Below, piece after piece: positions 19,078-36,259 of a DNA stretch of 64,000 nucleotides; position 1 is the stretch's first letter, and each line of letters starts with the position of its first letter. The notes under the pieces were generated by a model. The model was not told the DNA's origin. It did not search any database and saw only the letters and a list, made by a program, of their open reading frames with translations. The position numbers and the translations under genes were made by a program. The DNA lies in the NCBI RefSeq assembly GCF_000402035.1, contig NC_021287.1, positions 868,001 through 932,000 of the forward strand, in the 5' to 3' direction. The stretch comes from Caballeronia insecticola. GTDB lineage: Bacteria; Pseudomonadota; Gammaproteobacteria; Burkholderiales; Burkholderiaceae.

Positions 19078-20145
19078 TCAGTTCTCGCTGCTCGGCGACG
19101 GATTGCCTGCGTCGGCTTCCTCGTTCTCATAAGCGCCGAGGCGGTTGTACAGGGTCTTCAGGCTCACGCCGAGCGCCTTGGCCGCGCGCCGCTTGTCGCC
19201 GCCGCAATGCTTGAGGGTGCCGAGAATGATCTGCTTTTGCGCATCGGCGAGCGGCGTGCCGACCCAGACGTTCATCGCATCGCCCTGAGTCACCGGCTTC
19301 TTCACCCGAGACGCGAGATGCGGATGCGGAATCTCCACCGACTTCTCCGCGAGAATGAACGCGCGGTAGATCGTGTTCTTGAGTTCGCGCACGTTGCCGG
19401 GCCACGAATACGTGCGCAGCACGTCGAGCGCGCGCTTGCTAAAAACCTTGCTCGTGCCTTCCTGCGCGTTCATTTCGGCGAGGAAATGCTGCGCGAGCAG
19501 TTCGCGATCCGCGTCGCGTTCGCGCAAGGGCGGCGCGCGCAGCGGAAACACGGCGAGGCGGTACATCAGGTCTTCGCGCAGGCCGTTTTCCTTCACGGCC
19601 GTCACCGGATCGCGATTGGTCGCGGCGATCACACGCACGTCCGAACTGATGAGATCGTTGCCGCCGACGCGAAAGAACGTGCCCGTCTCCAGCGCCCGCA
19701 GCAGCTTGACCTGCCGCACGGGCGACATCTCGGTCACTTCGTCGAGAAACAGCGTGCCGCCGTTCGCGTGCTCGAAGTAGCCGATGCGCCCCTGCACCGC
19801 GCCGGTGAAGCTGCCTTTCTCGTGGCCGAACAACTCGGCCTCGATGAGATTGTCGGGAATCGCGCCGCAGTTCACGGCGATAAACGGCGCATCCTTGCGC
19901 GCGCTCTGGTCGTGGATGGTCCGGGCGACGAGCTCCTTGCCCGTACCCGATTCGCCGATGATGAGCGCCGTTGCGTCGGTGCCGGCGACGCGCTCGATCT
20001 GCGAGTACAACTCCTGCATCACGGGCGACGAGCCGTATAGCAGCCCGTACGATTTCAAGCCCGGCACTTCCCCCGCGTGGCGCTTTTTCTGCGCCGGCGT
20101 ATTGCCGGCTGCAACGGGCGGCGGATCCAGATCGGTTGACGCCAT
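19078..20145 (-). CDS. Sigma-54 activator without receiver domain
   Basis: The 355-residue enhancer-binding protein consists of a short N-terminus (~35 residues), an AAA+ domain with Walker A GESGTGKE, the sigma-54 contact loop GSFTGA (an A-to-S variant of GAFTGA), Walker B GTLFLDE, and a C-terminal Fis-type helix-turn-helix ([16 protein letters not shown]). Like PspF it has no N-terminal regulatory domain, so it must be controlled by abundance or a separate inhibitor. The ATG follows CAGGA. It is divergent from a gene preceded by a good sigma-54 promoter at 20654, and its closest in-window relative is the activator at 22224. I infer that it controls the nearby sigma-54 promoters. Confidence 0.88.
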
Positions 20146-20653
20146 GTGTCCTGATGTGTCCTGAGTGCTTGCGAATGTGATGGTCGGGCGACGGCCTCTG
20201 GCGCGTCGACGGGACCCGGTGGCGCAGGTTCGGGCGCGGTATCTGACTCTGGCGCGTGCGAGCGGCGCGCGGGTGGATGAACGCCCGCATCGGTATTTGA
20301 CAGGGCGCGTGCGCGCTTGTCTGCCCAATGTGCCCACGATGCGGCGGGCCGCGCTTCCTTCGCCGTGCGTCGGTTCAGGTCGTCTGCCCGGCGCGGCCGG
20401 AAAGCTGGCGACGAACCTGTCTCATAAACGCTATTTAACCATTCGCAACGACTTTGCGGCAATGCGCGCCATGTGTAGCGCGCCAATTTGTCTGACTCGG
20501 GCGGGGTGCGATGGACGCTACCGGAAAGGTTCGCCGCATGCGCCGAGAAATTACAACGCGATGCTGCAAATGTTACCCGTCGGCTGGCCGCCTTAAGCGC
20601 GCGGCAGTGCGTATTGTCCGGCCTGAACATTCCGCGACTGCGACGGAATCGTC
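20146..20653. other. Upstream region shared by sigma-54 activator and membrane-protein operon
   Basis: About 500 bases without a gene. It should hold the promoter of the minus-strand activator and any enhancer sites for the sigma-54 promoter at 20654. I see no convincing activator palindrome and no sigma-54 site directed towards the activator gene. Confidence 0.4.
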
Positions 20654-20670
20654 TTGGCACGGAAACTGCA
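20654..20670 (+). promoter_or_regulatory. Sigma-54 promoter of the 20759 operon
   Basis: TTGGCACGGAAACTGCA matches the -24/-12 consensus YTGGCACG-N4-TTGCW at all but one position (C for the first T of TTGC) with exact GG-N10-GC spacing. The expected start lies near 20681, 78 nt before the coding region. Confidence 0.75.
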
Positions 20671-20758
20671 TGGTGTAGGCAAATCTTATTCGAAAGTGCC
20701 GTCATCGAGACGATATCGACGACGCCAACACGAGGACGGTCGAGAGAGGCAACGCATC

Positions 20759-21106
20759 ATGGAAGACTTTTTCAATTTCGAAGCCGTGGCGTACGAACGC
20801 GCAAAACCCGCGCGACAGGTGCGTGCATCGTCGACACGCGGATCGCGGGGCGACCGGCCGGAACTCGCGACGGGCGAGCCGATCGACATCTATCACTGGG
20901 CCGCCGTCGCGCTCGTGACCGCGCTCATGTGCGCGGTGCTAGGCTATGCGGCAGGCACGCCCGCGCTGTCCCGCGCCGCGAACGTGACGAGTTTCGTGTT
21001 CGGTGCAATGGGCATGGCGTTGATGGCGAGCGGCGTCGTACGCAGCCTGCGCACGCGCATCGCGACGGGCGAGCGGCTCGTCGTGCCCGTCGTCAAGACG
21101 CATTGA
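20759..21106 (+). CDS. Small two-segment membrane protein, unknown
   Basis: The 115-residue protein begins MEDFFNFEAVAYERA, with a charged N-terminal tail (1-43), two membrane segments (about 46-66 and 74-96) and a short basic C-terminus. The ATG follows AGAGAGG. It lies downstream of a strong sigma-54 promoter and 93 nt before a DUF883 gene, so it is likely the first gene of a sigma-54-dependent operon with the next two genes. I do not recognise a family. Its partners suggest an envelope-stress setting. Confidence 0.75.
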   Translation: MEDFFNFEAVAYERAKPARQVRASSTRGSRGDRPELATGEPIDIYHWAAVALVTALMCAVLGYAAGTPALSRAANVTSFVFGAMGMALMASGVVRSLRTRIATGERLVVPVVKTH

Positions 21107-21199
21107 GGTCGCCTGCGCGCGTGACGGCCGATCATGGCGCGCGTGCATCGTCCCACTCATCCGTCCATTCATCCACCCACAAGGCGAGGACTCCACTAA

Positions 21200-21517
21200 A
21201 TGACTCAGACGACTGTCCAGCTTGCGTTGGGCAAGCAAAAGATCATCGAAGACATCAAGGTGCTGCTGAACGATTCGGAAGAATTGCTGCGGCTCTCCGC
21301 GACGCTGCCGGGCGAGGGCGTCGAAGCATTGCGCTCGAAGCTTCGCGATCATGTCGAATCGGCGCGCGGTGCGCTGGAAGACGCGCAGGCGAGTGCGCAG
21401 ACCCGTTATCGCGCGGGCGTCGATTGCACGGAAAAGTACGTGAAGGACAATCCGTGGCAATCGCTCGGCATTGCGGCGGGCGTCGGCTTTCTCTTTGGGC
21501 TGATCGTGTCCCGCTGA
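21200..21517 (+). CDS. DUF883 (ElaB/YqjD-type) membrane-anchored protein
   Basis: The 105-residue protein has a long amphipathic helical N-terminal part (residues 10-75) and a single C-terminal membrane segment preceded by the family signature DNPWQSLGIAAGVGFLFGL. E. coli relatives ElaB and YqjD are tail-anchored inner-membrane proteins. YqjD binds ribosomes in stationary phase, and ElaB protects against oxidative and other stress under RpoS control. Here the gene sits in a putative sigma-54 operon instead. The ribosome site GCGAGGA lies about 9 nt before the start. Confidence 0.87.
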   Translation: MTQTTVQLALGKQKIIEDIKVLLNDSEELLRLSATLPGEGVEALRSKLRDHVESARGALEDAQASAQTRYRAGVDCTEKYVKDNPWQSLGIAAGVGFLFGLIVSR

Positions 21518-21643
21518 TTTTATTTGGCTTAGAAGCAAAGCCTTAGAAGCAACGCCTTTGACGCAGCGCATTTGACGCGGCAAATGGCGACGGCCGCCGT
21601 CACGGGCGGCATCGAATTTTCATGATGATGGGAGAGAACACAA

Positions 21644-21877
21644 ATGGCACGTCCTTCGATTGGAATTTTCGGCGCGTTGTTCGCAGTCGGCAGCGTGCTT
21701 GCATGGAAATGGGTGCAGTCGCAGGATGCCGGGCGGCGCACGGCGCGCGATCTGAATCGCTGGGAAGACGAAGGCGGCAAAGTGCTGACGCCCGCCAGCG
21801 GCGCGAGCGCGCGCGTCGTCAATGGCCATGGCACGGTAGGCGGCACCGCCGACGCGTGGCACTTCCCGCGTAGTTGA
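21644..21877 (+). CDS. Small N-terminally anchored protein, unknown
   Basis: The 77-residue protein starts MARPSIGIFGALFAVGSVLAWKW, one membrane segment or uncleaved signal, followed by a polar tail ending ADAWHFPRS. A GGGAGAG ribosome site precedes it. It lies 126 nt after the DUF883 gene and before a terminator, so it is probably the last gene of the same transcript. The function is unknown. Confidence 0.7.
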   Translation: MARPSIGIFGALFAVGSVLAWKWVQSQDAGRRTARDLNRWEDEGGKVLTPASGASARVVNGHGTVGGTADAWHFPRS

Positions 21878-21949
21878 GGACGAGTTAGCGGCGGCCGTAG
21901 AACCTCGCCGCGTCGTTTCAACAGACCCGGTCAATTCGCCCATTCGAGG

Positions 21950-21979
21950 AAACGCACGCCTTGCCGGCGTGCGTTTCTA
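21950..21979 (+). terminator. Terminator of the 20759-21877 operon
   Basis: An 11-bp perfect stem (AAACGCACGCC) on a TTGCC loop is followed by TTCTATCTT. Confidence 0.8.
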
Positions 21980-22223
21980 TCTTGATAAACGCTTATAATC
22001 ACCGAAATTCCGCCATAAGTTGCCTAAATGGAAAAACTTACGGTGAGCTCAGGGTAAGTGCGCATGATCGGAAATAATTATATTTTCACGGATTAGACAA
22101 GCGGCCGATAATCGAATTGGCGCGCCGTGAATCCACCGGCCCGCGCGGCACCGGCCGCACGGAGAAGACCACGCCGTTCCCCGGCGTGTGACCCTGAAAT
22201 GTTTTGCAAGAATTCGAGACGCG

Positions 22224-23627
22224 ATGCCACACGTATTGATTGTCGATGACGATCCCAGTACCCGCGAGGCGCTAGCCGCGATCATCGGCGAAGACGGACT
22301 GACGACAGCCACAGCCGGCGACTTGCGCGAAGCGCGCATTCAGCTTGTGCGTCAGACGCCTGACGTCGTGTTCACCGACCTGAAGCTGCCGGACGGCTCG
22401 GGCGTCGATCTGTTCGAAGACCTCGATCCGCGCTCGGGCGTCGAGTTCATCGTCATTACCGGTCACGCGACCGTGGAATCCGCGGTCAGCGCGCTCAAGA
22501 TGGGCGCCGCCGACTATCTGGTCAAGCCGATCAACATGCAGCGCGTGAAGGCGATTCTTTCGCGCCTGCCGCGCGCCGGCGACCTGAAGGCGGAGATCGG
22601 CACCTTGCGCGGCGAATTGCGCCGCATGGGCCGCTTCGGCCTCATGCTTGGCAATTCCCCGGCAATGCAGACGGTCTACGATCAGATCGGCCGCGTGGCG
22701 CCGACTGCGGCGTCGGTGCTGCTGATCGGCGAATCCGGCACCGGCAAGGAAGTCGCCGCTCAGACGCTGCACGAGCTGAGCCTGCGTCGCAAGCACTCGT
22801 TCATCGCGGTGAACTGCGGCGCGATTTCGCCGAATTTGATTGAATCGGAGATGTTCGGCCATGAACGCGGCTCGTTCACGGGCGCGGACCGGCAGCACAA
22901 AGGCTATTTCGAGCGCGCGAACGGCGGCACGCTGTTCCTCGACGAAATCACCGAAATGCCGATCGAACTTCAGGTGAAGCTTTTGCGCGTGCTGGAGACG
23001 GGCATGTTCATGCGCGTCGGCACGACGAAGGAACTCGAAACGGACGTGCGTCTGATCGCCGCGACCAATCGCGATCCGGAGCAGGCGGTGCTCGAAGGCA
23101 AACTGCGCCTCGATCTCTATCACCGGCTGAACGTGTTCCCGATCAACCTGCCGCCGCTGCACGAGCGCGGCAAGGACGTCGAACTGCTCGCGCAAGCGTT
23201 CCTCGATGAACTGAACAGCCGCTACAACACGAAAAAGGGCTTCCCGCAGGCCGTGCGCGAGATGCTCGGATCGTACAACTGGCCCGGCAACGTACGCGAA
23301 CTGAAGAACTATGTGCAGCGCGCGTACATCATGTCGTCGTCCGATTCGGACAGCACGGCAACCGTGCCGCTGCAGATCTCGCTGTCGAAGCCCTCGGCGG
23401 GTACGGCCGTGACGATTCCGTTCGGCACGTCGCTAGCACAGGCCGACCGCCAACTCATCCTCGCAACGCTCGACCAGTGCGGCGGCGTGAAGACGCGCGC
23501 GGCAGAGATCCTCGGCATCAGCCTGAAAACGCTCTATAACCGGCTTGTCGAATACGGTGAGGATGCGAGCAAGGCAGCGGTCGGCGAGGGCGGGGAAGTC
23601 AGCGAGTCTGACCACGAAAATCCCTGA
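22224..23627 (+). CDS. NtrC-family sigma-54 response regulator (orphan)
   Basis: The 467-residue protein has a receiver (1-120, phosphoacceptor D52 in VFTDLKLPDG, conserved K in LVKPIN), an AAA+ domain (Walker A GESGTGKE, sigma-54 loop GSFTGA, Walker B GTLFLDE) and a Fis-type helix-turn-helix ([16 protein letters not shown]). The start is set by the family N-terminus MPHVLIVDDD. The extra upstream codons of the open frame look unrelated. No histidine kinase gene is near, so it is an orphan regulator. Its loop variant and recognition helix resemble those of the receiver-less activator at 19078, which suggests common ancestry and perhaps overlapping sites. Confidence 0.9.
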   Translation: MPHVLIVDDDPSTREALAAIIGEDGLTTATAGDLREARIQLVRQTPDVVFTDLKLPDGSGVDLFEDLDPRSGVEFIVITGHATVESAVSALKMGAADYLVKPINMQRVKAILSRLPRAGDLKAEIGTLRGELRRMGRFGLMLGNSPAMQTVYDQIGRVAPTAASVLLIGESGTGKEVAAQTLHELSLRRKHSFIAVNCGAISPNLIESEMFGHERGSFTGADRQHKGYFERANGGTLFLDEITEMPIELQVKLLRVLETGMFMRVGTTKELETDVRLIAATNRDPEQAVLEGKLRLDLYHRLNVFPINLPPLHERGKDVELLAQAFLDELNSRYNTKKGFPQAVREMLGSYNWPGNVRELKNYVQRAYIMSSSDSDSTATVPLQISLSKPSAGTAVTIPFGTSLAQADRQLILATLDQCGGVKTRAAEILGISLKTLYNRLVEYGEDASKAAVGEGGEVSESDHENP

Positions 23628-23653
23628 ACATCGCTTATCTTTAGACGAAAACG

Positions 23654-23758: not shown

Positions 23759-23775
23759 GGGGCATGCCCCTTGCG
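23759..23775 (+). promoter_or_regulatory. Candidate sigma-54 promoter of the proline-rich gene
   Basis: GGGGCATGCCCCTTGCG has GG-N10-GC spacing and an intact TTGC. The -24 half differs from TGGCACG at two positions. The coding region begins about 98 nt downstream. Confidence 0.5.
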
Positions 23776-23871: not shown

Positions 23872-24078
23872 ATGCCCGATTCCGCCTCCACACGTGCACG
23901 TATCGAAGCGCAGACCCCGCAGCCGCCGGATCCGCCGGTGACGCCGCCCGATCAGCCGCCGCCCGTTCCGATTCCGCCCGACACGAATCCGGACCCGACG
24001 CGCGAGCCGCCGGTGCCGCCGTCTCAGCCGATCGGCGATCCGCCGCCGGGACCGAACGAGACGCCGCACGTTTATTGA
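23872..24078 (+). CDS. Small proline-rich protein
   Basis: The 68-residue protein is about one third proline (PPDPPVTPPDQPPPVP and similar), acidic, without a signal peptide or membrane segment, and so probably disordered. An AAGGAG ribosome site lies 7 nt before the ATG, and the codon choice is like that of its neighbours, so I regard it as real. A candidate sigma-54 promoter precedes it and a strong terminator follows. The function is unknown. Confidence 0.7.
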   Translation: MPDSASTRARIEAQTPQPPDPPVTPPDQPPPVPIPPDTNPDPTREPPVPPSQPIGDPPPGPNETPHVY

Positions 24079-24656: not shown

Positions 24657-24673
24657 AAGGCACAGCTTTTGCA
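24657..24673 (+). promoter_or_regulatory. Sigma-54 promoter of otsA
   Basis: AAGGCACAGCTTTTGCA has exact GG-N10-GC spacing, GGCA in the -24 half and a perfect TTGCA in the -12 half. The coding region of otsA begins 55 nt downstream. Confidence 0.65.
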
Positions 24674-24727: not shown

Positions 24728-26179
24728 ATGAGCAGATTGATCGTGGTATCGAATCGCGTCGCACCGATCCAGGAAGGCAAGCCCAGCGCGGGCGGTCTTG
24801 CGATCGGCGTTCTGGACGCGCTCAAGGAGACTGGGGGCGTGTGGTTCGGGTGGAGCGGCGAGATCGTCGGCGAGGCGGGCGCGCCTGTCCTGGAAAAGGC
24901 CGGGAATGTGACCTATGCAACCGTCGGGCTCACGCGCCGGGATTACGACCAGTATTACCGCGGCTTCTCGAACGCGACGCTGTGGCCGACCTTCCACTAC
25001 CGCAATGACCTGTCGCGCTTCGATCGCGAAGAATACGCGGGCTACATGCGCGTCAACGCGAGCCTTGCCGCGAAGCTGAAGCTGCTTCTCAAGCCCGATG
25101 ACATCATCTGGGTGCACGACTACCACATGCTCCCGTTTGCGCAGGAGCTAAGAAAGCTGGGCGTCGAGAATCCGATCGGCTTCTTCCTGCATATTCCGTT
25201 TCCGGTGCCGGAAATGATGCGCACCGTGCCGCCGCACGAGGAATTGATCGCCGCGATGTGCCAGTACGATGTCGTCGGCTTCCAGACGCAAAGCGACCAG
25301 CAGTCGTTCACCGATTACGTGGAGCGCACCGGACGCGGCCATTTCAGCGACGACGGCATGCTCCAGGCCTTCGGCCGCATGCTCAAAGTGGGCGCGTATC
25401 CGATCGGCATCTATCCGGATGCGATCGCCAAGGCCGCCGAGCAGTTCTCCAATCGCAAGCCGGTCCGCAGCCTGCGCGACAGCATGCATGGGCGCAAGCT
25501 CATCATGAGCGTGGATCGTCTCGATTACTCGAAGGGTCTCGTCGAGCGTTTTCAGGCGTTCGAGCGCTTTTTGCTGAACGCGCCGGGCTGGCACGGCCGC
25601 GTATCGCTCGTGCAGATCGCGCCGCCGACGCGCGCCGACGTGCAGACGTATCAGCGCATTCGTCAGAATCTGGAGGGCGAGGCGGGGCGCATCAACGGGC
25701 GCTTTGCGCAGCTCGACTGGACGCCGATCCAGTATCTCAACCGCAAGTACGAGCGCAATCTGCTGATGGCGCTGTTCCGTCTCTCGCAGGTCGGCTATGT
25801 GACGCCGCTGCGCGACGGCATGAATCTGGTGGCGAAGGAATACGTCGCGTCGCAGGATCCGGCCGATCCGGGCGCGCTTGTGCTGTCGCAGTTCGCGGGC
25901 GCGGCGGATCAGTTGCCGGGCGCGCTCGTCGTCAATCCGTTCGATCTGTCGCAGATGTCCGAAGCGCTGGAGCGCGCGCTGTCGATGCCGCTCGCCGAGC
26001 GCCAGGCGCGTCACACCGACATGATGGCGCCGCTGCGCGAGAACAACCTCTCGGTCTGGCGCGATTCCTTCCTCTCCGACCTGCGCAGCGTCGCGACGGC
26101 GACCTCGGTCACGGAGAAGACCGTGAAGACGGTGAAGCAGGGCGCAAGCGAGGCACGCCGTCCGTCGGCGAAAGCCTGA
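24728..26179 (+). CDS. otsA: Trehalose-6-phosphate synthase
   Basis: This GT20 glycosyltransferase of 483 residues makes trehalose 6-phosphate from UDP-glucose and glucose 6-phosphate. Visible family features are MSRLIVVSNRVAP, the donor loop SAGGLAIG, HDYHMLPFAQELR, HIPFPVPE, the phosphate-binding RLDYSKGL (Arg and Lys of the active site) and DGMNLVAKEYVASQ. The length is normal. It is monocistronic, with its own terminator. The phosphatase gene otsB, usually adjacent, is missing from the window. A sigma-54 promoter lies directly upstream, unlike the RpoS control known from E. coli. Confidence 0.95.
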   Translation: MSRLIVVSNRVAPIQEGKPSAGGLAIGVLDALKETGGVWFGWSGEIVGEAGAPVLEKAGNVTYATVGLTRRDYDQYYRGFSNATLWPTFHYRNDLSRFDREEYAGYMRVNASLAAKLKLLLKPDDIIWVHDYHMLPFAQELRKLGVENPIGFFLHIPFPVPEMMRTVPPHEELIAAMCQYDVVGFQTQSDQQSFTDYVERTGRGHFSDDGMLQAFGRMLKVGAYPIGIYPDAIAKAAEQFSNRKPVRSLRDSMHGRKLIMSVDRLDYSKGLVERFQAFERFLLNAPGWHGRVSLVQIAPPTRADVQTYQRIRQNLEGEAGRINGRFAQLDWTPIQYLNRKYERNLLMALFRLSQVGYVTPLRDGMNLVAKEYVASQDPADPGALVLSQFAGAADQLPGALVVNPFDLSQMSEALERALSMPLAERQARHTDMMAPLRENNLSVWRDSFLSDLRSVATATSVTEKTVKTVKQGASEARRPSAKA

Positions 26180-26276: not shown

Positions 26277-26293
26277 GCGGAACGAGATTTGCG
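26277..26293 (+). promoter_or_regulatory. Candidate sigma-54 promoter of the acidic-protein gene
   Basis: GCGGAACGAGATTTGCG has GG-N10-GC spacing and an intact TTGC, with one change (A for C) inside GGCACG. It begins 50 nt before the coding region at 26327. Confidence 0.55.
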
Positions 26294-26326
26294 GACTCGT
26301 CATGGACACGAACCCAGGAGGTCATG

Positions 26327-26671
26327 ATGAGCGGAAGCACCCTGAACCCGCCGGAAGACGACGGCGCAGAATACGGCAAGGGACACGGCACGGGCGCGCT
26401 GGGCCCGAGCGATTCATCCGACAGCGGCTCGGACGTGCAAGGGGAAAAGCGCTATCCGGGCGAGATCGAGAGCGAACTCGACGCGCATGCGCTCGGCCAG
26501 TCCGAAGCCGAACTCAATAGCGACACCGACCGTTACGGCACGGGCGAAGCCGCATCCGCCGACGGCGACAATCATCTCCAGCCGGACGGCGATATCCTCC
26601 CCGACGAGATCGAGGACGAAACGCGCAACATCGAAGACGAGGACAGAGACGAAGACGCCGACCTGTCCTGA
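26327..26671 (+). CDS. Small strongly acidic protein, unknown
   Basis: The 114-residue protein is very rich in Asp, Glu, Ser and Gly, without hydrophobic segments, ending in an acidic run (IEDETRNIEDEDRDEDAD). It is likely disordered. Two ATGs stand in tandem after AGGAGG. The second (26327) has the better spacing and is chosen. It has its own sigma-54-like promoter and a strong terminator. No named family is recognised. Confidence 0.7.
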   Translation: MSGSTLNPPEDDGAEYGKGHGTGALGPSDSSDSGSDVQGEKRYPGEIESELDAHALGQSEAELNSDTDRYGTGEAASADGDNHLQPDGDILPDEIEDETRNIEDEDRDEDADLS

Positions 26672-27847: not shown

Positions 27848-29374
27848 TCAGCTCGCCTGACGGCGCAACTCGGCGGGCGGCACCTTCATCAGATGCCGAT
27901 ACTTCGCCACCGTGCGGCGCGCGACGATCACGCCCTGATCCGCGAGCATCTTCGCGAGGCTCACGTCGGACAGCGGATCGCGCGTGTTTTCCTTCGAGAT
28001 CATTTCCTTCAGCAGCGCACGCACCGCAGCGGCCGAGCAGGTGCCGCCGCTCTCCGTCGAGAGTTCGCGGGGGAAGAAGTGCTTGAACTCGAAGATGCCA
28101 CGCGGCGTCGCCATGTACTTGTTGCCCGTCGCGCGCGAGATGGTCGATTCGTGCAGGCCGAGTTCATCGGCGACATCGCGCAGCACGAGCGGCTTGAGTG
28201 CAATTTCGCCGTAGTCGAAAAACGCCTTCTGATGCGAGACGATGCATTCGGCCACGCGCTGAATCGTGGTGAAACGCTGCTGCGCGTTGCGGATCAGCCA
28301 ACGCGCTTCCTGCAATTGCTGCGCGAGCGGCGAGCGGCTCGCGCCGGCCGACTGCGCGAACAACTCCGCGTACATGCGATGGATGCGCGCGCGCGGCAGC
28401 ACAGCCGGGTTGATCGTGACGATCCACTGCTTCTTCATCGGACGCACGATGACGTCCGGCACCACGTAGTTGTCCTCGCTCGCGCCGTAGTTCTCGCCCG
28501 GCTTGGGATCGAGACGGCGGATCAGCGCACAGGCGATGCGCAGGTCGTCCGCGCTGCAGCCGATCTTCTTTTGCAACTCGGCCTGTTCGCGACGCGCGAG
28601 CCGTTCCAGATGATGCGCGACGATCTCCAGCGCGACTTCGCGTCCCGGCGTGTCTTCTTCCATCGCCTCGAGTTGCAGCGACAAACATTCGGAGAGATTG
28701 CGCGCGCCGACGCCCGGCTTGTCGAGCGACTGCACGAGCTTGAGCGCAATGTTGAGTTCGTCCTCGCTGAGCGCCGGTTCGATATCGACGACGTTCGCAA
28801 GCTCGCTGAGTTCCTGGCGCAGATAACCGTCGTCGTCCAGTGCTTCGATGATGAGCTGTGCGATCGCGCGATCGCGCTCGTTCAGTTGATAGAGCCGCAG
28901 GCCCTCGTGCAGCGTGTCGTGCAGCGACGGCTCAATGCGCACCCAGTCTGCGGGATCGGAGCCTTCGCCGTCGCCGCTGTTGCGCGAGGCGCTGCGGCCG
29001 AACGGATCGGACGAGTACTCGCTCGAATATTCGTTCGAGTATTCGTTCATTGAATCTTCGCGCGAGACGTTGTCGGTGCTTTGCTCGCTGTCCATGCTCG
29101 ACATGCTCGATTCGGACGCAAGCGGCGCTTCAGCCGACGATTCCGACGACGCGCCGGACAAGGATGTTTCGCTCATCGAATTGCCGTTGTCGGCGCCGAG
29201 CGCGTTGTCTTCGGTTTGCGACTCGTCGTATTCGAGGAACGGATTGGTGTCGAGCGCGTTGCGCAGTTCTTGCTGGAATTCGAGCGACGAAAGCTGCAGA
29301 AGACGGACCGACTGCTGCAGGCGCGGCGTGAGCGCGAGACTTTGCTTTGCGCGGAGTTCGAGTGTAGGCGGCAT
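27848..29374 (-). CDS. rpoN: RNA polymerase sigma-54 factor, probably the second rpoN copy
   Basis: The 508-residue sigma-54 begins with region I (LELRAKQSLALTPRLQQSVRLLQLSSLEFQQEL), continues with an acidic, serine-rich region II (about 60-125, including NEYSNEYSSEYSSDPFG), then the core-binding domain, and ends with the DNA-binding part and the RpoN box ARRTVAKYR (485-493). All domains are intact. The usual partners lptB, hpf and ptsN are absent, so this is probably the additional rpoN copy known in several Burkholderiaceae. A near-perfect sigma-54 promoter lies 56 nt upstream, which suggests autoregulation. It lies between sigma-54 activator genes and many sigma-54-like promoters. Confidence 0.95.
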   Translation of the reverse strand: MPPTLELRAKQSLALTPRLQQSVRLLQLSSLEFQQELRNALDTNPFLEYDESQTEDNALGADNGNSMSETSLSGASSESSAEAPLASESSMSSMDSEQSTDNVSREDSMNEYSNEYSSEYSSDPFGRSASRNSGDGEGSDPADWVRIEPSLHDTLHEGLRLYQLNERDRAIAQLIIEALDDDGYLRQELSELANVVDIEPALSEDELNIALKLVQSLDKPGVGARNLSECLSLQLEAMEEDTPGREVALEIVAHHLERLARREQAELQKKIGCSADDLRIACALIRRLDPKPGENYGASEDNYVVPDVIVRPMKKQWIVTINPAVLPRARIHRMYAELFAQSAGASRSPLAQQLQEARWLIRNAQQRFTTIQRVAECIVSHQKAFFDYGEIALKPLVLRDVADELGLHESTISRATGNKYMATPRGIFEFKHFFPRELSTESGGTCSAAAVRALLKEMISKENTRDPLSDVSLAKMLADQGVIVARRTVAKYRHLMKVPPAELRRQAS

Positions 29375-29429: not shown

Positions 29430-29446
29430 AGCAACGGCTGTGCCAG
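29430..29446 (-). promoter_or_regulatory. Sigma-54 promoter of rpoN
   Basis: The minus strand reads CTGGCACAGCCGTTGCT, which differs from YTGGCACG-N4-TTGCW only at the last base of the -24 half, with exact GG-N10-GC spacing. It points at rpoN, 56 nt from its start codon. This is the best match in the window. Confidence 0.8.
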
Positions 29447-29696
29447 CCTTAGTTAAGCTCGCGCTGTGACTACGTTTTTTGCTATCGCGCCGAGGATGCG
29501 GACGCTCTGCACCGACCCATTTCACGCAGTTTTTACACGCGCTCAGACAAAAGCACTGCGCATGCCGTATCCGTTCGAATGCTGGTTTAACACGGTACTT
29601 TGCGACGTCGAAGATTTGTTCGGGTGCGCGCGAACCCCTTGATCCGACAGTGTTTTATCGCCCGCGCGTGCTTGAGCCAAATGTATGACGATGCCC
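29447..29696. other. Region between divergent sigma-54 promoters of rpoN and the BON gene
   Basis: About 250 bases without a gene separate two outward-facing sigma-54 sites. This is where shared enhancer sites for a sigma-54 activator would be expected. I see no unambiguous palindrome in it. Confidence 0.4.
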
Positions 29697-29713
29697 TCGG
29701 CACGCAAGTTGCG
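29697..29713 (+). promoter_or_regulatory. Sigma-54 promoter of the BON gene
   Basis: TCGGCACGCAAGTTGCG keeps GGCACG and TTGC intact with exact spacing. Only the T before GG and the base after TTGC depart from consensus. It begins 145 nt before the coding region. Confidence 0.7.
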
Positions 29714-29841: not shown

Positions 29842-30180
29842 ATGAAGACGACTCAAATCCTGAAGGCAGCCGGTGGTATCGCGTGTGTGGTGTTTGCGCT
29901 GAATGTGAGTGCTCAAACCAACTCGGCATCGTCGACCAGTTCGGACACGACGGTCGGCCAGAAGGTCGATGACAGCGCGATCACGACGAAGGTCAAGGCC
30001 GAATTGCTCGGCGCGAAGAACGTCAAGTCCACGCATATCCACGTGAAGACGCACTCCGGCGTGGTGTCGCTGACCGGCACGGTGCCGTCGGCGGAAGACA
30101 AGACGGCTGCGGAAGACGTCGTTTCGAAGGTCTCCGGTGTTGCTTCCGTGAAGAACCATCTTAAAATTGCGGCGAAGTAA
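29842..30180 (+). CDS. Periplasmic BON-domain protein (OsmY-like)
   Basis: The 112-residue protein has a signal peptide (MKTTQILKAAGGIACVVFALNVSAQ, cut near residue 24) and a single BON domain from about 40 to 110 (SAITTKVKAELLGAKNVKS, the turn SGVVSLTGTV, VASVKNHL). BON proteins bind phospholipid and support envelope integrity under osmotic stress. OsmY has two such domains, this protein one. A GGGAG ribosome site precedes the ATG. Longer upstream frames would destroy the signal peptide. It is preceded by a good sigma-54 promoter and is divergent from rpoN. Confidence 0.9.
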   Translation: MKTTQILKAAGGIACVVFALNVSAQTNSASSTSSDTTVGQKVDDSAITTKVKAELLGAKNVKSTHIHVKTHSGVVSLTGTVPSAEDKTAAEDVVSKVSGVASVKNHLKIAAK

Positions 30181-30843: not shown

Positions 30844-31296
30844 TCAGGACTTCGCGGCGGCGTACTGATCACGCAGATCGCGAATGCGGTCGTGATTTTG
30901 CAGCACACCTTGGTATTGGCGCTCCACCACCGCGCGGACATCGGCGGGCAGGTCCTTGTCCAGCGCCTCGCGATAATTCTTCTTCGCCGCATCTTCGCCG
31001 CGCTCGCACTCGGCGAGAATCGCATGATCGCTATGGCCGCTCACGGCCGACTTCACATCGACCCAGCCGCGATGCAGCGCGCCCGCCATGGAGCCGCCCG
31101 TTTCGGGCTTGCCGCCCAGTCGCTGAACGATGTCCTGTAGCTCGCGTGCACCTTGCGCGCAGTCTTCGGCGCGATTCTGGAACAGCAGCTTGAGGCTAGG
31201 ATCACGCGTGTCCTCGGCTGCCTTCAGGAAGCCCTTCTGCCCGTCATTCGAGATTTCGACGAGATCATTGAGTACCGATACGACGTTCGTGCTCAT
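30844..31296 (-). CDS. PA2169-family four-helix-bundle protein
   Basis: The 150-residue protein is all-helical and soluble, with family features LNDLVEISNDGQKGFLKAAED, the central GGSMAGALHRGWVDVKSAVSG and the C-terminal ERQYQGVLQNHDRIRDLRDQY. The ferritin-like fold (DUF2383) may bind metal, but no function is established. An AGGAGG ribosome site precedes the ATG. The gene is divergent from the 79-residue gene, and both have candidate sigma-54 sites in the shared upstream region. Confidence 0.88.
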   Translation of the reverse strand: MSTNVVSVLNDLVEISNDGQKGFLKAAEDTRDPSLKLLFQNRAEDCAQGARELQDIVQRLGGKPETGGSMAGALHRGWVDVKSAVSGHSDHAILAECERGEDAAKKNYREALDKDLPADVRAVVERQYQGVLQNHDRIRDLRDQYAAAKS

Positions 31297-31380: not shown

Positions 31381-31397
31381 CGCACGCGGCGTGCCCG
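31381..31397 (-). promoter_or_regulatory. Candidate sigma-54 promoter of the PA2169-family gene
   Basis: The minus strand reads CGGGCACGCCGCGTGCG, with GGCACG intact and exact GG-N10-GC spacing. The -12 half has G for the first T of TTGC. It lies about 85 nt before the start codon. Confidence 0.5.
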
Positions 31398-31441: not shown

Positions 31442-31458
31442 CAGGAACATGTTTTGCA
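31442..31458 (+). promoter_or_regulatory. Candidate sigma-54 promoter of the 79-residue gene
   Basis: CAGGAACATGTTTTGCA has a perfect TTGCA and exact spacing, but the -24 half is degenerate (GGAACA). It begins 83 nt before the coding region and faces away from the site at 31381. Confidence 0.45.
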
Positions 31459-31524: not shown

Positions 31525-31764
31525 ATGAAGTATTTCAACCGGCTCGCCAATCGCGAGTTTTTAATCCTTGTGGCGCTCGTCGCTTCGGCTATGACGATGC
31601 ATGTAAAGCAGCACATCACCGAGAAGCAAGCGCAGCCCGTACAGTCGTCCCAGCGTATGTGCGAGCCGTCGGTCGCCAGTCTGAATAAGGCGCGTGCAAT
31701 GCCCGCGGATTGCGGTATGCGGGCGAAGGTGAGGTCGGTGCGTTCGACCGTGAGTTGGGTCTGA
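31525..31764 (+). CDS. Small membrane-anchored protein, unknown
   Basis: The 79-residue protein has a hydrophobic segment at about 11-26 (EFLILVALVASAMTMHV) and a polar tail with two cysteines (RMCEPSV, ADCGMRAK), which could form a disulphide in the periplasm. AGGAGAG lies before the ATG. It shares a divergent upstream region with the PA2169-family gene. The function is unknown. Confidence 0.68.
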   Translation: MKYFNRLANREFLILVALVASAMTMHVKQHITEKQAQPVQSSQRMCEPSVASLNKARAMPADCGMRAKVRSVRSTVSWV

Positions 31765-31796
31765 TGGCCAGCGTCTGATTCATACACACATCAAGC

Positions 31797-31823
31797 AAAA
31801 ACGCCCGCAGCAGCGGGCGTTTT
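31797..31823. terminator. Bidirectional terminator
   Basis: The perfect stem AAAACGCCCGC on an AGCA loop is flanked by A and T runs, between two convergent genes. Confidence 0.9.
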
Positions 31824-31856
31824 GTCTTGCATCAGTCGAGTCACTCGAGCACGCAC

Positions 31857-32441
31857 TCAAGCGCGCGTATGCGCATACTCGCCCGTCGGTTCGTTGACAG
31901 GATGCGGCGGCTGCAGCGGATCGAAATCGCTCCAGCGGCCTTGCCGCCAGCGGCCCGATGCGCGTTCGAGATCCATGCCGCCCGCTTCGCGCAGAATCGT
32001 CGTGGCTTGGTCCTGCATCTCGGGCGATACGTGCACCGCGAGGAGCACGCCCGCGTGACGCGTGGGCGCTTCGGCATGAGTCGCGAGCTTGGGCTTTTTG
32101 GTATGCGACATCGCGCCGGCGAGCGACCCGATATACGCGCCGACCCCGGCCGCGATCGCCGATACGAACAGCGGCGCCTGAAACACGGCAAATACCGCCG
32201 CGCCCACCACCGCGCCGACGACCGCACCGATCGTCACGCCCTTGCCGGCGCCCTTGGGCGAATCACTTGCGCCGGCATCGGTGCCGACGTCGCCGCCAAT
32301 CGGATGGCGCGCGTGCTGGCCGCTCGGATTGACGAAGAAAAGCGTCACGTCTTCTTCCACGAAGCCGCGCGCAAACAGACGCTGGGCCGCCGATTCGGCC
32401 GCGGGAAAGGTCTGGAATCGGCCCGCAATGATCAGGGACAT
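31857..32441 (-). CDS. Glycine-zipper membrane protein of general-stress type
   Basis: The 194-residue protein has a cytoplasmic N-terminal domain (MSLIIAGRFQTFPAAESAAQRLFARGFVEEDVTLF), which resembles the general stress protein 17M-type fold, then a glycine-rich double membrane segment (about 70-110, GAVVGAVVGAAVFAVFQAPLFVSAIAAGVGAYIG) and a polar tail. AGGAGGG precedes the ATG. A small conserved protein of this build is common in stress clusters. The exact role is unknown. Confidence 0.72.
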   Translation of the reverse strand: MSLIIAGRFQTFPAAESAAQRLFARGFVEEDVTLFFVNPSGQHARHPIGGDVGTDAGASDSPKGAGKGVTIGAVVGAVVGAAVFAVFQAPLFVSAIAAGVGAYIGSLAGAMSHTKKPKLATHAEAPTRHAGVLLAVHVSPEMQDQATTILREAGGMDLERASGRWRQGRWSDFDPLQPPHPVNEPTGEYAHTRA

Positions 32442-32517
32442 GTTCCCTCCTTGAAGACTAAAAGTTGCGTTCGGTTGCTGCAGTGTCATCAGGAAACGCG
32501 CTTGTCGTTCCTCGGCT

Positions 32518-32805
32518 TCACTCCGGTTCGAGTCCGGCGACGCGAAACAAACCGCTTCTCAGCACGACCGGCTTGCCGCCGTTTTCGTCGAGCGCTTCGG
32601 CGCACACGGCGCGAATGCGCGCGATGCCGCCGGCGAAGGCATCGAGCAAATCTTCCTCGCGCGGCGATGGCGCGCCGAAGTGGTCTTCGAGCGCCTCGGC
32701 GCTGATCGAGCACACGACCGGCTCGCCATCGACGAGTGCCGCGAAGTGAATCGCGAGATCGTCGCCGTCGTAAGTCGGGGCTTCTTCTGCAAACGTGATG
32801 TGCAT
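32518..32805 (-). CDS. DUF1488-family protein
   Basis: The 95-residue cytoplasmic protein contains the family core VDGEPVVCSISAEALEDHFGA. A GAGGA ribosome site precedes the ATG. It is 65 nt downstream of the DUF4142 gene in the same direction, so it may be the third gene of the PfpI-DUF4142-DUF1488 unit. The function is unknown. Confidence 0.78.
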   Translation of the reverse strand: MHITFAEEAPTYDGDDLAIHFAALVDGEPVVCSISAEALEDHFGAPSPREEDLLDAFAGGIARIRAVCAEALDENGGKPVVLRSGLFRVAGLEPE

Positions 32806-32870
32806 GGTCGAGTCCTCATAAGCGGGACGAAAACGAAAAGAGGCGACGCGCCCGGCGACGTTCGCGGTAC

Positions 32871-33434
32871 TCATGACGCGGCCTTTGCGCGGGCAAGTTG
32901 CTGGGCCATCGCATAGTGATGGCTGATGACCGGCAGCGCCTTGGTCGCGGCCGCCTTGAGCGCCGTGTCATTGCCGCTTTCGCTTTCCTTCTTGAAGAGC
33001 GCCACGGCCTTCTGATGGCCGTCGACCGCCACCTTTTCAATATAGGCCTTGTCGAACTCCGCGCCCTGGAGATTTTCCAGACTGCCGATCACGGCCGAAT
33101 CTGCCGTGGGTGCCGCCGTGATGCCGTGGCGTTTCGCGATTACGTCGAGATTGCGGGCGAGTTTCGTATGGTCCGCGACCATGCGCTGCGCAAACTCCTT
33201 CACCTGTCGGCCGCTTGCATGCGTGAGCGCGAGTTTGCTCGCCGCGATTTCGGTCGCGCCCGCCTGGCCCGCGTCCTGGAGGAATTGCTGATCGGCGGCG
33301 GACAGCTTCTGCGCATTTGCCGCGCTCGGCGTTGCGCTGGCGCTTTCCTGTGCGTGAGCGTGGGCAAACGGTAGCAGCGCGGCGAGCACGAAGGCACCCG
33401 CACGCAGGTTCGATGGGAAGGTTCGCGAGGGCAT
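32871..33434 (-). CDS. Periplasmic DUF4142 protein
   Basis: The 187-residue protein has a signal peptide ending near AHAQ (residues 26-29) and a helical DUF4142 domain (FLQDAGQAGATEIAASKLAL, FAQRMVADHTKLARNL, YIEKVAVDGHQKAVALF), a ferritin-like fold often found in stress-induced exported proteins. The chosen ATG gives a clean signal peptide and has GGAG upstream. An alternative GTG at 33482 overlaps the stop of the PfpI gene as GTGA, which would couple translation. Either way it is cotranscribed with the PfpI gene. Confidence 0.85.
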   Translation of the reverse strand: MPSRTFPSNLRAGAFVLAALLPFAHAHAQESASATPSAANAQKLSAADQQFLQDAGQAGATEIAASKLALTHASGRQVKEFAQRMVADHTKLARNLDVIAKRHGITAAPTADSAVIGSLENLQGAEFDKAYIEKVAVDGHQKAVALFKKESESGNDTALKAAATKALPVISHHYAMAQQLARAKAAS

Positions 33435-33478
33435 CGGCGTCGGCTCCGGTTGCGGTCGTGCGGATCGTGTGAAAGCGC

Positions 33479-34030
33479 TCACGCCGCACGCGTCTTGGAA
33501 AGGGCCTCGATCAATGCACGATTGAACGCGGGCAGATCGTCGGGCTTGCGGCTCGTGATGAGATTGCCGTCGATCTGCACTTCCTGATCGACCCAGGTGC
33601 CGCCGGCGTTGCGCACGTCGTCCTGCAGGCTCGGCCAGCTCGTCATCGTGCGGCCCGCGACGATACCCGCCGAAATCGGCAGCCAGCCGCCATGGCAGAT
33701 CACGGCGATCGGCTTCTGCGCCTTGTCCGCTTCCTTGACAAAGCGTTGTGCTTTCGCATCGAGCCGGATCGCATCGCCATTAACGACGCCGCCGGGAAGC
33801 ACGAGCGCGTCGTAATCCGCGGCGCTGGCGGCGTCGAAAGTCACGTCGACATCGACCTTATCGCCCTTGTCGACGTGCTTGAACCCCTGAATCTGGCCCG
33901 CTTGCTGCGACACGACATCGACCTGCGCGCCGGCTTCTTTCAGCGCGCGCTGCGGCTCGACGAGTTCAGCCTGTTCGAAGCCATCCAGCGCGAGAATCGC
34001 GACCTTGCAGCCGCTTAAGGAAACAGCCAT
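33479..34030 (-). CDS. DJ-1/PfpI-family protein
   Basis: The 183-residue protein has the nucleophile elbow VICHGGW with C112, the acidic residue in the early DGFEQAEL motif, and LVLPGGVV, matching the YhbO/PfpI branch of the DJ-1 superfamily. E. coli YhbO protects against oxidative, thermal and glycation stress. AAGGAG precedes the ATG. It is the first gene of a unit with DUF4142 and perhaps DUF1488, under a sigma-54-like promoter at 34094. Confidence 0.9.
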   Translation of the reverse strand: MAVSLSGCKVAILALDGFEQAELVEPQRALKEAGAQVDVVSQQAGQIQGFKHVDKGDKVDVDVTFDAASAADYDALVLPGGVVNGDAIRLDAKAQRFVKEADKAQKPIAVICHGGWLPISAGIVAGRTMTSWPSLQDDVRNAGGTWVDQEVQIDGNLITSRKPDDLPAFNRALIEALSKTRAA

Positions 34031-34093
34031 GAACACACTCCTTGTTGCTGATTTCGAACGTTCCGCATTGGCGGAATCCATGTTCGAGAGTTC

Positions 34094-34110
34094 AGCAAGG
34101 GGTGTGCCCA
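34094..34110 (-). promoter_or_regulatory. Sigma-54 promoter of the PfpI-DUF4142 unit
   Basis: The minus strand reads TGGGCACACCCCTTGCT, with GGCAC and TTGCT intact and exact spacing. It ends 64 nt before the PfpI start codon. Confidence 0.65.
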
Positions 34111-34137
34111 GCGCGTGATTCGAGGATGAAGGCTCGG

Positions 34138-34177
34138 GCAGCCCTCAGGCAGCCCTCAGGCAGCCCTCAGGCAGCCC
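34138..34177. repeat. 11-bp tandem repeat, 3.6 copies
   Basis: The unit GCAGCCCTCAG is repeated three times without change at 34138, 34149 and 34160, with a seven-base fourth copy. It lies between the stop of the transporter gene and the sigma-54 site at 34094, about 30-70 bp upstream of that promoter. The period is one helical turn. Confidence 0.85.
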
Positions 34178-34179
34178 GC

Positions 34180-35547
34180 TCAGGCAGGCTCGACGCTGCG
34201 CTTCCCCGTCAGACGCAACATGCTGACGACGGCGGCCACCGCCGCGAATACCGCCGCGACTGCGATCGCGATCGTCGCGCCTTCCTTGGGCGCGATGCCG
34301 AAGATCAGCGCAACGATCGCGGCGCCCAGCGTCTGTCCGGTGAGGCGCGCGGTGCCGAGCATGCCGCTTGCGCCGCCGCTGCGATGACGCGGTGCGGAAG
34401 ACAGCATCTGACGATTGTTCGGCGACTGGAACAGGCCGAAACCGAGCCCGCACACGGCCATACGCCACGCGATGTCGAATGCGCCCGGATGCGCGCCGAC
34501 GGTCGCGAGCAGCACGAGCCCGATCGTCAGAATCGCAAGCCCGATGCCGCCGAGCAGACCGGCCGAATAGCGGTCCGCGAGCACGCCCGAGAGCGGCGCC
34601 ACGAACACGATGACGAGCGGCCACGGCGTCATCAGAAAGCCGGTTTCAACCTGGCTCATGCCGAAGCTGTCCTGCAGCAGAAACGGCAGCGACACGAACG
34701 CGAGCATCTGCGCGCAGAACGAGCACACCGAAGTGCCGACCGAGAGCGCAAACACGGGAATGCGCATCAGGTCGATCGGCAGGAGCGGCGCACTCTGTGT
34801 GAGCTGGCGCTTGACGAAGAAATAGCCGATCACCACGGTGGCCGCGAACTCGGCAATGAGCCACGGCCGATGCTCGCCGTGCCCGATGCCGTCCACCGCC
34901 ACGATCGCGATGCCGAAGAACAGCGCGTTCATGATCGCGCTGATGTAGTCGTAGGGCTGACGGTGTCCCGGCGTGCGCGGCAGCGACGTCCAGCCGATCG
35001 CGAAGGCGGCGAGACCGATCGGCACGTTGATCGCGAAGAGCCACGGCCACGGCGCGATGGCGAGCACACCGGAGGCGATCGTCGGGCCGATCACGGACGA
35101 AATGGCGACGACCGTCGCGTTGATGGAGACGCCGCGTCCGAGTTGATCGTGCGGATAGATGATGCGCACGAGCGCCGTGTTGACGCTCATGATTCCGGCC
35201 GCGCCGAAGCCCTGCACGACGCGCGCGACGGTGAGCGCGACGAGCGAGCCGGACAGCGCACACGCAAACGACGACACCGTGAAGAGCGCGAGCCCGGCCA
35301 TGTACACGCGCCGGTAGCCGATGCGGTCGCCGAGCGAGGCGAGCGGCAGCAGCGAAATGGTGATCGCCAGTTGATACGCGTTGACGATCCAGATGGAATC
35401 GGCCGGTGAGGCGTCGAGATTGCGCGCGATGGTCGGCAGCGCGACGTTGGCGATAGCGCCGTCGAGCACCGCGAGCGTGATGCCGAGCGCGACGACGGCA
35501 ATGGCCCAGTATCGCTGGGGCAGCGGCAAACCTTGTTCGGAATCCAT
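34180..35547 (-). CDS. MFS transporter, DHA2 (14-segment) drug-efflux type
   Basis: The 455-residue membrane protein has about 14 hydrophobic segments. Family motifs are LDGAIANVALPTIARNL (segment 1), the MFS loop GDRIGYRRVYMAG after segment 2, and VQGFGAAGIMSVNTALV (segment 4). Such proteins export drugs or other amphiphiles with proton antiport. It is transcribed alone, from its own promoter, with no adjacent membrane-fusion or outer-membrane partner. The substrate is unknown. Confidence 0.88.
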   Translation of the reverse strand: MDSEQGLPLPQRYWAIAVVALGITLAVLDGAIANVALPTIARNLDASPADSIWIVNAYQLAITISLLPLASLGDRIGYRRVYMAGLALFTVSSFACALSGSLVALTVARVVQGFGAAGIMSVNTALVRIIYPHDQLGRGVSINATVVAISSVIGPTIASGVLAIAPWPWLFAINVPIGLAAFAIGWTSLPRTPGHRQPYDYISAIMNALFFGIAIVAVDGIGHGEHRPWLIAEFAATVVIGYFFVKRQLTQSAPLLPIDLMRIPVFALSVGTSVCSFCAQMLAFVSLPFLLQDSFGMSQVETGFLMTPWPLVIVFVAPLSGVLADRYSAGLLGGIGLAILTIGLVLLATVGAHPGAFDIAWRMAVCGLGFGLFQSPNNRQMLSSAPRHRSGGASGMLGTARLTGQTLGAAIVALIFGIAPKEGATIAIAVAAVFAAVAAVVSMLRLTGKRSVEPA

Positions 35548-35656
35548 CGATGGGCGGGAAGTGGCAGCGGCGCATTGTAGGCCGCGCCGATTTCAAATTG
35601 CTTGTGAGCGGCGCGGGGTTGGACGGCGTGCCGGGCGCCGCGCCGTCCAATCGCGT

Positions 35657-36160
35657 TTATTTCAGTTCGTACAGGCCGGTGTAAGTGGCCGAATCGATTT
35701 CGTTCAGATGCGTCATGAAGCGCGCCACCGCGTTGGTGGTGTTCACATCGAGCGGCAGGCTTTCCGCGGAAAGCGCGTGAATGCGGAAGATATAGCGATG
35801 CGGCTTGTCGCCACGCGGCGGCGCGGCGCCGCCGAACCCGACGGTGCCGTAGTCGTTGCGAAGCTGCAGCGCGCCTTGCGGCAGAAGACTGCCGTCGGCC
35901 TTGCCGGCGTTGCGCGGCAGCGAGCGCGCGTCAGGCGGAATATTGACCACGATCCAGTGCCAGAAGCCGCTGCCCGTGGGCGCGTCGGGATCGTAGACGG
36001 TCAGCGCCAGACTGCGCGTGTCGGCGGGCGGGGCGTCCCATTGCAGCGCCGGGGAGATGTTCTCGCCCGAGACGCCGAAGGCTTGCTGGTCGAATTCCTG
36101 CGCGCGCGTCATAAAGCCGTTCGCTGGAAATTCGTCGGACCAGATACGGAAATCAGCCAT
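35657..36160 (-). CDS. YbhB/YbcL family PEBP-like protein
   Basis: The 167-residue protein has the phosphatidylethanolamine-binding protein core: SPALQWDAPPADTRSLALTVYDPDAP, the HWIVVNIPP strand and GFGGAAPPRGDKPHRYIFRIHAL. E. coli YbhB is cytoplasmic, and no signal peptide is seen here. AGGAGG lies 10 nt before the chosen ATG. The frame extends 48 codons further upstream without family similarity. A candidate sigma-54 promoter lies about 85 nt upstream. Confidence 0.9.
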   Translation of the reverse strand: MADFRIWSDEFPANGFMTRAQEFDQQAFGVSGENISPALQWDAPPADTRSLALTVYDPDAPTGSGFWHWIVVNIPPDARSLPRNAGKADGSLLPQGALQLRNDYGTVGFGGAAPPRGDKPHRYIFRIHALSAESLPLDVNTTNAVARFMTHLNEIDSATYTGLYELK

Positions 36161-36242
36161 GAGAGTCGTGCCTCCTTGTTGCAGTGAATATGAATGCGGG
36201 CCGTGGCGGCTCGTGCGCGCGGCGGCCGGCTTGTGAATCGGG

Positions 36243-36259
36243 TGCAGCAAACGTGCCCG
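36243..36259 (-). promoter_or_regulatory. Sigma-54 promoter of the PEBP-like gene
   Basis: The minus strand reads CGGGCACGTTTGCTGCA, with GGCACG intact, exact spacing, and CTGCA for TTGCA. It faces the gene starting at 36160. Confidence 0.6.

Follow-up and report, generated by a model that had tools for sequence, protein, structure and literature searches.

A conserved block of sigma-54 promoters around rpoN2 in Caballeronia insecticola and the stress regulon it may represent

The rpoN2 block and its promoters

The region considered here is a 17.2-kb block of the Caballeronia insecticola genome (positions 19078 to 36259 of a 64,000-nucleotide stretch, referred to below as the window) which holds a gene for a second sigma-54 factor, two putative activators of sigma-54 transcription and ten sites with the form of sigma-54 promoters. 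The genome comprises 6.96 Mb in five contigs, the window lies at C1:868001-932000 (contig NC_021287.1), and there are two copies of rpoN, one at 250 kb and the other within the window. An earlier note on the same DNA, made from the letters alone, had described the block as a self-contained sigma-54 regulon serving stress and envelope genes.

On sequence grounds the rpoN copy within the window (27848..29374, minus strand) is RpoN2. The closest named relative of its product in a protein comparison is that of Caballeronia (Burkholderia) peredens, with 95% identity; the AID, core-binding (CBD) and DNA-binding (DBD) domains are found by Pfam over the full length, and the protein matches solved sigma-54 chains. 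The two activators are a receiver-less protein (19078..20145, minus strand; Pfam Sigma54_activat and HTH_8) and a response regulator (22224..23627, plus strand; receiver, Sigma54_activat and HTH_8). Both have the features of bacterial enhancer-binding proteins, namely the AAA+ sigma-54 interaction domain by Pfam, a GAFTGA-type loop which reads GSFTGA in the translations, and a Fis-type helix-turn-helix. The response regulator can fairly be called an orphan within the 30 window proteins scanned with Pfam, because the sole histidine kinase among them (10238-11617) is about 10 kb distant.

The ten sites can be divided by the base at position -26, which is T in two of them and another base in eight. 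The T-26 promoters are TGGCACGGAAACTGCA (20655..20670, plus strand; 16.5 bits on the weight matrix described below), which precedes the gene of a small protein without a Pfam match (20759-21106, the "20759 gene") and then a DUF883 gene (21200-21517, the pair spanning 20759..21517 on the plus strand), and TGGCACAGCCGTTGCT (29430..29445, minus strand; 17.4 bits), the promoter of rpoN2. The non-T promoters on the plus strand are GGGCATGCCCCTTGCG (23760..23775) before a proline-rich open reading frame (ORF; 23872-24078), AGGCACAGCTTTTGCA (24658..24673) before otsA (24728..26179, plus strand), which encodes trehalose-6-phosphate synthase (Pfam GT20), CGGAACGAGATTTGCG (26278..26293) before the gene of an acidic protein (26324-26671), CGGCACGCAAGTTGCG (29698..29713) before a BON-domain gene (29842..30180, plus strand), and AGGAACATGTTTTGCA (31443..31458) before a 79-aa ORF (31525-31764). 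Those on the minus strand are GGGCACGCCGCGTGCG (31381..31396), the weakest of the ten, before the gene of a DUF2383 (PA2169-type) protein (30844..31296, minus strand), GGGCACACCCCTTGCT (34094..34109) before PfpI, and GGGCACGTTTGCTGCA (36243..36258) before a PEBP gene (35657-36160), which is followed by an MFS transporter gene (34180-35547, the two together occupying 34180..36160 on the minus strand). The PfpI gene heads a run on one strand which continues with DUF4142, a 118-aa ORF and a glycine-zipper protein (31857..34030, minus strand; DJ-1/PfpI and DUF4142 by Pfam) and is a probable operon.

What the earlier note had read in the letters is borne out at this level. Pfam agrees with each gene it named (rpoN, both activators, otsA, BON, PfpI, DUF4142, PA2169-type, PEBP and DUF883), and all ten GG-N10-GC sites are present, none more than one base from the position it gave; counted from the first base of each site, the ATG is 46-144 nt away, where 50-150 had been claimed, and the at least six close matches to TGGCACG-N4-TTGC are found (one mismatch in three sites, two in six and three in one). 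With GG-N10-GC -24/-12 elements at conserved spacing before genes, the sites are sigma-54 promoters as far as sequence can define them. The note had also proposed that their density be compared with the genomic background. On a sigma-54 weight matrix modelled on the published consensus, the block contains 8 sites of at least 12 bits (seven of the ten, and one inside the response-regulator gene). In 446.8 kb of this genome there are 27 such hits, which gives an expectation of 1.04 for the block, so strong sites are about eight times denser in the block than in those 447 kb; twenty 20-kb samples of the genome contain 0-4 such sites each. The Poisson probability of this enrichment, 1.4e-5, applies to a region which the earlier reader had picked because of its sites, and three of the ten fall short of 12 bits (10.6, 10.9 and, before DUF2383, 8.0). 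The plain pattern with at most two mismatches occurs 18 times in the block, compared to 7.0 expected from 2836 occurrences in 6.96 Mb.

Conservation of the sites and the company of RpoN2

The conservation of the sites was evaluated in 80 rpoN2 loci from named genomes (44 Caballeronia-type and 36 Paraburkholderia-type) together with the window, by taking the best site in the 300 nt before each ortholog start and counting those that reach 9 bits. Such a site is present at rpoN in 81/81 loci, and for orthologs of the other genes at otsA in 39/39, PfpI in 57/57, the acidic gene in 52/52, the 20759 gene in 37/37 (Caballeronia-type loci), the proline-rich ORF in 20/20, BON in 77/79, the 31525 ORF in 28/30, DUF2383 in 52/71 and PEBP in 31/39, the remaining eight PEBP sites scoring 8.5-8.9 bits. 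The non-target genes are mostly without sites: the receiver-less activator has one in 1/40, the response regulator in 0/38, GGDEF in 0/38, BrkB in 3/40, ORF 24299 in 0/39, ORF 30507 in 1/42, MFS in 3/42 and DUF883 in 2/38, and within the PfpI gene run sites are rare at the glycine-zipper gene (4/64) and at ORF 32518, the 118-aa ORF (6/70). The exceptions are the 21644 ORF (11/38) and DUF4142 (13/60), where the sites in at least two loci, L087 and L101, resemble that of the PfpI promoter.

The distribution of the activators was examined in 150 Burkholderiaceae genomes, of which 78 have rpoN2, 37 have rpoN1 alone and 35 have no rpoN. With orthology cut-offs that were picked after viewing the tables, and with tallies made by reading those tables, the response regulator has an ortholog (E<1e-165) in 78/78 genomes with rpoN2, 20/37 with rpoN1 only and 0/35 without rpoN, and the receiver-less partner has one (E<1e-115) in 66/78 genomes with rpoN2. 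The 12 exceptions all belong to one genus, g11, two loci of which have a 50%-identical gene in the same divergent layout. A wider comparison of twenty further rpoN2 loci shows that seven genera (g25, g13, g16, g7, g15, g24 and g17) combine rpoN2 and the response regulator with overlapping sets of block genes, the receiver-less partner lying on the same stretch or just past its edge, and that no activator of either type is nearby in the g8 loci, two g20 loci and two of three g11 loci. A search of a plasmid collection for rpoN2 returned no Ralstonia among the 40 matches listed.

Homologous activators with sigma-54 sites near them also occur in genomes with a single rpoN. In the single-rpoN genus g3 (L214-L217), a TGGCCC-type sigma-54 site recurs between the response regulator and the glycine-zipper gene, which suggests from the sequences that the sigma-54 programme may predate rpoN2.

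The other Pfam families represented among neighbouring proteins of the window are BrkB, MFS and PAS-GGDEF, and two Porin_4 paralogs adjoin each other at 2057-3205 and 3529-4806, both on the minus strand.

The element upstream of rpoN2 and the base at -26

Upstream of rpoN2 there is a second conserved feature, a TGTAAA motif, usually in the form TGTAAAAA, which precedes the -24 box in 95 of 100 rpoN2 upstream regions (101 loci, one having been dropped by the site filter). In the window it lies at 29525..29549 on the minus strand, 92 nt from the -26 base, and faces the divergent BON promoter as well; its long form, TGTCTGAGCGCGTGTAAAAACTGCG, has one exact copy and one copy with two mismatches genome-wide. 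The element-to-promoter distances fall at 69-72, 78-82, 91-93, 103, 113 and 147 nt, with a period near 11 bp, and when unique distances were compared with random sets, 4 of 20000 sets were as strongly phased, by a statistic that ignores shared ancestry. The out-of-phase gaps were also considered as evidence of phasing and were discarded, having been chosen after the data had been viewed. Before the 20759 gene, TGTAAAAA is present in 19/37 Caballeronia-type loci compared to 3/37 in a reversed control. A matrix derived from the rpoN2 elements found nothing convincing at the seven remaining promoters; at otsA the reversed sequences gave 10/39 hits and the real ones 0/39, so the reversed control is noisy. 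We take TGTAAAAA to be a candidate enhancer serving rpoN2 and BON, to which one of the two activators would bind.

Two related observations concern other loci. In the Ralstonia-like loci L154 and L155 the response-regulator gene is itself preceded by a sigma-54 site, with a similar element at a distance of about 68 nt from that site, and this arrangement suggests that the activator gene is itself under sigma-54 control there, unlike in the window. A second element of the TGTAAAAA type is found near the gap between the acidic gene and BrkB, with no strong sigma-54 site near it, at L072:12583 (plus strand) and in 14 other Caballeronia-type loci.

The base at -26 was compared using a version of the matrix that is blind to this position, in orthologs with an aligned start and a site of at least 9.5 bits (which leaves 4 orthologs of the proline-rich ORF, compared to 20 in the site scan). 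T is found at the rpoN2 promoter in 98/99 orthologs and at the 20759 promoter in 34/34, making 132/133 for this class (class I), while in the other eight promoters (class II) T is found in 24/392 and another base in 368/392. In amtB, which served as a control and is represented by two Caballeronia genes, every site has T (12/12 for one gene and 6/6 for the other); two more fragments yielded no site.

Sites of both kinds also occur outside the block. Of the exact sites in this genome, 12 of the 19 non-T sites outside the block were viewed, partly chosen for their recurrence in relatives, and 11 of the 13 T sites were viewed besides rpoN2 and amtB; Pfam was applied to 20 of the downstream proteins. 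The non-T sites, several of which recur in other Caballeronia, precede DUF4397, DUF1488, DUF6496, DUF1328, PLD-VTT, AI-2E-transporter, topoisomerase IB and TetR-type genes as well as several unrecognised small or secreted genes. The T sites precede genes for a Peripla_BP_5 binding protein, which we take to be of the urea-transport type, an MFS protein, an AraC-type regulator, an ABC ATPase, MscL, DUF3309 and glgA, as well as unrecognised genes. The MscL gene, in L297 (G000:C1:1298500-1303500), is preceded by TGGCATAGCCCTTGCT, and the same 16-mer is found in four other Caballeronia genomes listed. A second cluster, L293 (G000:C4:1253500-1267500), has sigma-54-like sites at glgA, topoisomerase IB and DUF3309 genes and is possibly another stress or glycogen island.

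The catalase gene katE is a further case. A non-T site precedes it in 11/11 of the Caballeronia loci examined (long catalases with a fetched locus) and is found in 6/7 katE sites of other genomes with rpoN2; outside Caballeronia, no site of at least 11.5 bits is present in 2/9 katE loci of rpoN2 genomes and 4/14 of rpoN1-only genomes. In one g11 genome (G049:C2:877611-882121) katE lies about 1 kb from rpoN2 and has no site of its own of at least 11.5 bits.

The split at -26 need not reflect a choice between sigma factors. A base other than T may instead mark weaker promoters or promoters served by another class of activator, an explanation which we regard as a serious possibility although short of probable: non-T sites are also found in single-rpoN genomes, and the T-26 promoters, those of rpoN2 and the 20759 gene, are the ones that carry TGTAAAAA. 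However, BON has a non-T promoter although it shares TGTAAAAA on its upstream side, and a non-T base has been maintained, with no sign of drift, in nearly all of the orthologous class II sites.

RpoN2 and a predicted stress regulon

In a maximum-likelihood tree of 37 RpoN2 and 20 RpoN1 proteins the two groups are separated by one branch with 100/100 support. In the RpoN box, ARRTVAKYRE, the RpoN2 of the window keeps ARRTVAKYR and has H in place of the final E; this last residue is E in 20/20 RpoN1 proteins and in 0/37 RpoN2 proteins, which have H, Q, R, N or G there. The arginines equivalent to R455 and R456 are kept in RpoN2, and two RpoN-box arginines are described as required for -24 binding (PMC7175178; this and the other papers cited are represented by the excerpts retrieved). 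In its separate clade, and in its linkage to and co-occurrence with activators and targets, RpoN2 resembles a sigma factor with a dedicated regulon.

We consider it likely that a regulon conserved in the Burkholderiaceae has its core in this block. Its role is probably stress and envelope protection, and it is predicted to be served by RpoN2 and the activator pair. The computed basis for this is the conserved -24/-12 promoters before ten genes, the distinct RpoN2 clade and the fact that none of the rpoN2 genomes examined lacks an activator ortholog. A signal would reach the orphan response regulator, the receiver-less partner or both, one of which would bind TGTAAAAA and, by looping of the DNA, activate the T-26 promoter of rpoN2; no sigma-54 site precedes either activator gene in the window, so the activators would be present beforehand. 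RpoN1 would be the first sigma factor at the rpoN2 promoter, joined later perhaps by RpoN2, and RpoN2 would then serve mainly the non-T-26 promoters, those of otsA, BON, the acidic gene, PfpI-DUF4142, DUF2383, PEBP and the small proteins, and that of katE elsewhere. The predicted targets (trehalose synthesis, BON, PEBP, PfpI, DUF2383 and the distant katE) suggest osmotic, oxidative and envelope protection; their functions beyond the family names are inferred, and the label "stress" is based on those names and on published katE data.

Several observations weigh against this reading. Apart from single loci TGTAAAAA is not seen at the other seven promoters, and no enhancer common to all ten emerged when their upstream sequences were searched for perfect dyads and shared tetranucleotides. 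A non-T base is found at one amtB site of another family (L226), and the T-26 genes elsewhere include the stress-like MscL, DUF3309 and glgA. The katE sites of rpoN1-only genomes have T in 5 and another base in 5 of 10, so RpoN1 may use both bases; the contrast with the Caballeronia loci and the other rpoN2 genomes taken together gives a one-sided Fisher value of 0.013, which ignores ancestry. The counts of T and non-T sites across 80 genomes, taken as a decisive test of a -26 code, went in the expected direction and were not decisive: the non-T excess per genome is 9.1 in 43 genomes with rpoN2 and 7.0 in 37 with rpoN1 only, a weak difference against an imperfect control, and the T excess is 7.2 and 8.2 respectively. 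Because this genome-wide count is in the expected direction yet weak, the -26 base as a code for which sigma factor acts is offered as a tentative hypothesis and not as a result. Finally, RpoN2 allowed an rpoN1 mutant to grow again on C4-dicarboxylates, and it gave an E. coli rpoN mutant back its use of amino acids (PMC4676750, PMC4745423); with such cross-complementation RpoN1 and RpoN2 cannot be strictly exclusive.

Such findings lend something to the idea that the sites are real sigma-54 promoters driven by RpoN1 alone with the two activators, RpoN2 being a redundant or amplifying copy. It would fit the homologous activators with nearby sites and the katE sites of rpoN1-only genomes, and the retrieved parts of two Ralstonia studies report no rpoN2 phenotype (PMC4371752, PMC4676750), complementation being partial (PMC4676750, PMC4745423). 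We nevertheless consider it unlikely, because RpoN2 has been kept as a clade apart, with distinctive residues in its DNA-binding domain, and is found amid the same genes in several genera, because expressed RpoN2 was unable to replace RpoN1 in most functions tested (PMC4676750), and because an rpoN2 mutant of B. pseudomallei no longer expressed katE (PMC4745423). That the sites are chance matches in GC-rich DNA which happen to fall before genes is very improbable: the count with at most three mismatches in the whole window shows no excess over shuffled sequence (269 compared to a shuffle mean of 302), but the block is enriched, the sites are conserved in up to 81 loci and rare before non-target genes, and at least nine of the ten keep fixed places before orthologous genes.

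The conservation of the sites, their specificity gene by gene, the co-occurrence of the activators and synteny thus support a conserved sigma-54 stress and envelope programme of the kind that the earlier note proposed; its description as self-contained is not supported. That term is too strong because a conserved sigma-54 promoter stands before rpoN2 itself, and in R. solanacearum, where a sigma-54 site likewise stands before rpoN2, expression of rpoN2 in minimal medium was abolished in an rpoN1 mutant (PMC4371752, in the part retrieved); because homologous activators and nearby sites occur in single-rpoN genomes; because similar sites precede the distant katE, DUF1328 and PLD genes; and because Paraburkholderia-type genomes keep the activators with otsA, MFS and PEBP apart from rpoN2 with BON, DUF2383 and PfpI. 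The synteny that the note had asked about is present in one sense, in that overlapping sets of the block genes recur in related loci, and absent in another, in that the block is split into two places in Paraburkholderia-type loci; physical self-containment depends on lineage, and co-occurrence does not.

In enteric bacteria otsA and katE are classical RpoS targets. The predicted regulon considered here shares both genes with the enteric RpoS regulon, but here they carry -24/-12 sigma-54 sites. The nearest systems, likened by description from the retrieved text, are the RpoN2 factors of R. solanacearum and B. pseudomallei. The former is likewise the product of a second rpoN and is not interchangeable with RpoN1, but no regulon, activators or promoter classes are assigned to it there (PMC4371752, PMC4676750). 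The latter is also encoded by a second rpoN on which the stress gene katE depends, and the Caballeronia katE has a conserved sigma-54 site; one target was pursued, however, and the excerpt gives no island, activator or -26 class (PMC4745423). In Cereibacter (Rhodobacter) sphaeroides there are several sigma-54 paralogs, RpoN1-4, each studied copy with its own activator, but this organism is alphaproteobacterial and the targets are nif, flagellar and xrpA genes rather than a stress island (PMC11999139).

No description of a sigma-54 stress island around rpoN2 was found in the retrieved open-licence PMC literature, and what is new, as far as was searched, is a proposed stress regulon and a pair of activators for Burkholderiaceae RpoN2, together with the spaced element and the split at -26. 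A broader proposal, which is possible but which we hold with some doubt, is that RpoN2 is a general-stress sigma-54 of the Burkholderiaceae and does part of the work of RpoS, acting second in a two-tier cascade which leads from RpoN1 to the T-26 promoter of rpoN2 by way of the phased TGTAAAAA enhancer and from RpoN2 to the non-T-26 stress promoters, with the changed RpoN box and DNA-binding domain giving a promoter code at -26. The gene rpoN2 is present in 78 of the 150 Burkholderiaceae genomes sampled, yet in the excerpts on R. solanacearum its role is called "enigmatic" (PMC4371752); the locus offers candidate activators, a candidate enhancer, a list of targets and a promoter signature for it. 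If the proposal is true, the osmoprotection and oxidative-stress genes of the family would be under the control of an ATP-dependent sigma-54 switch, beside or in place of RpoS.

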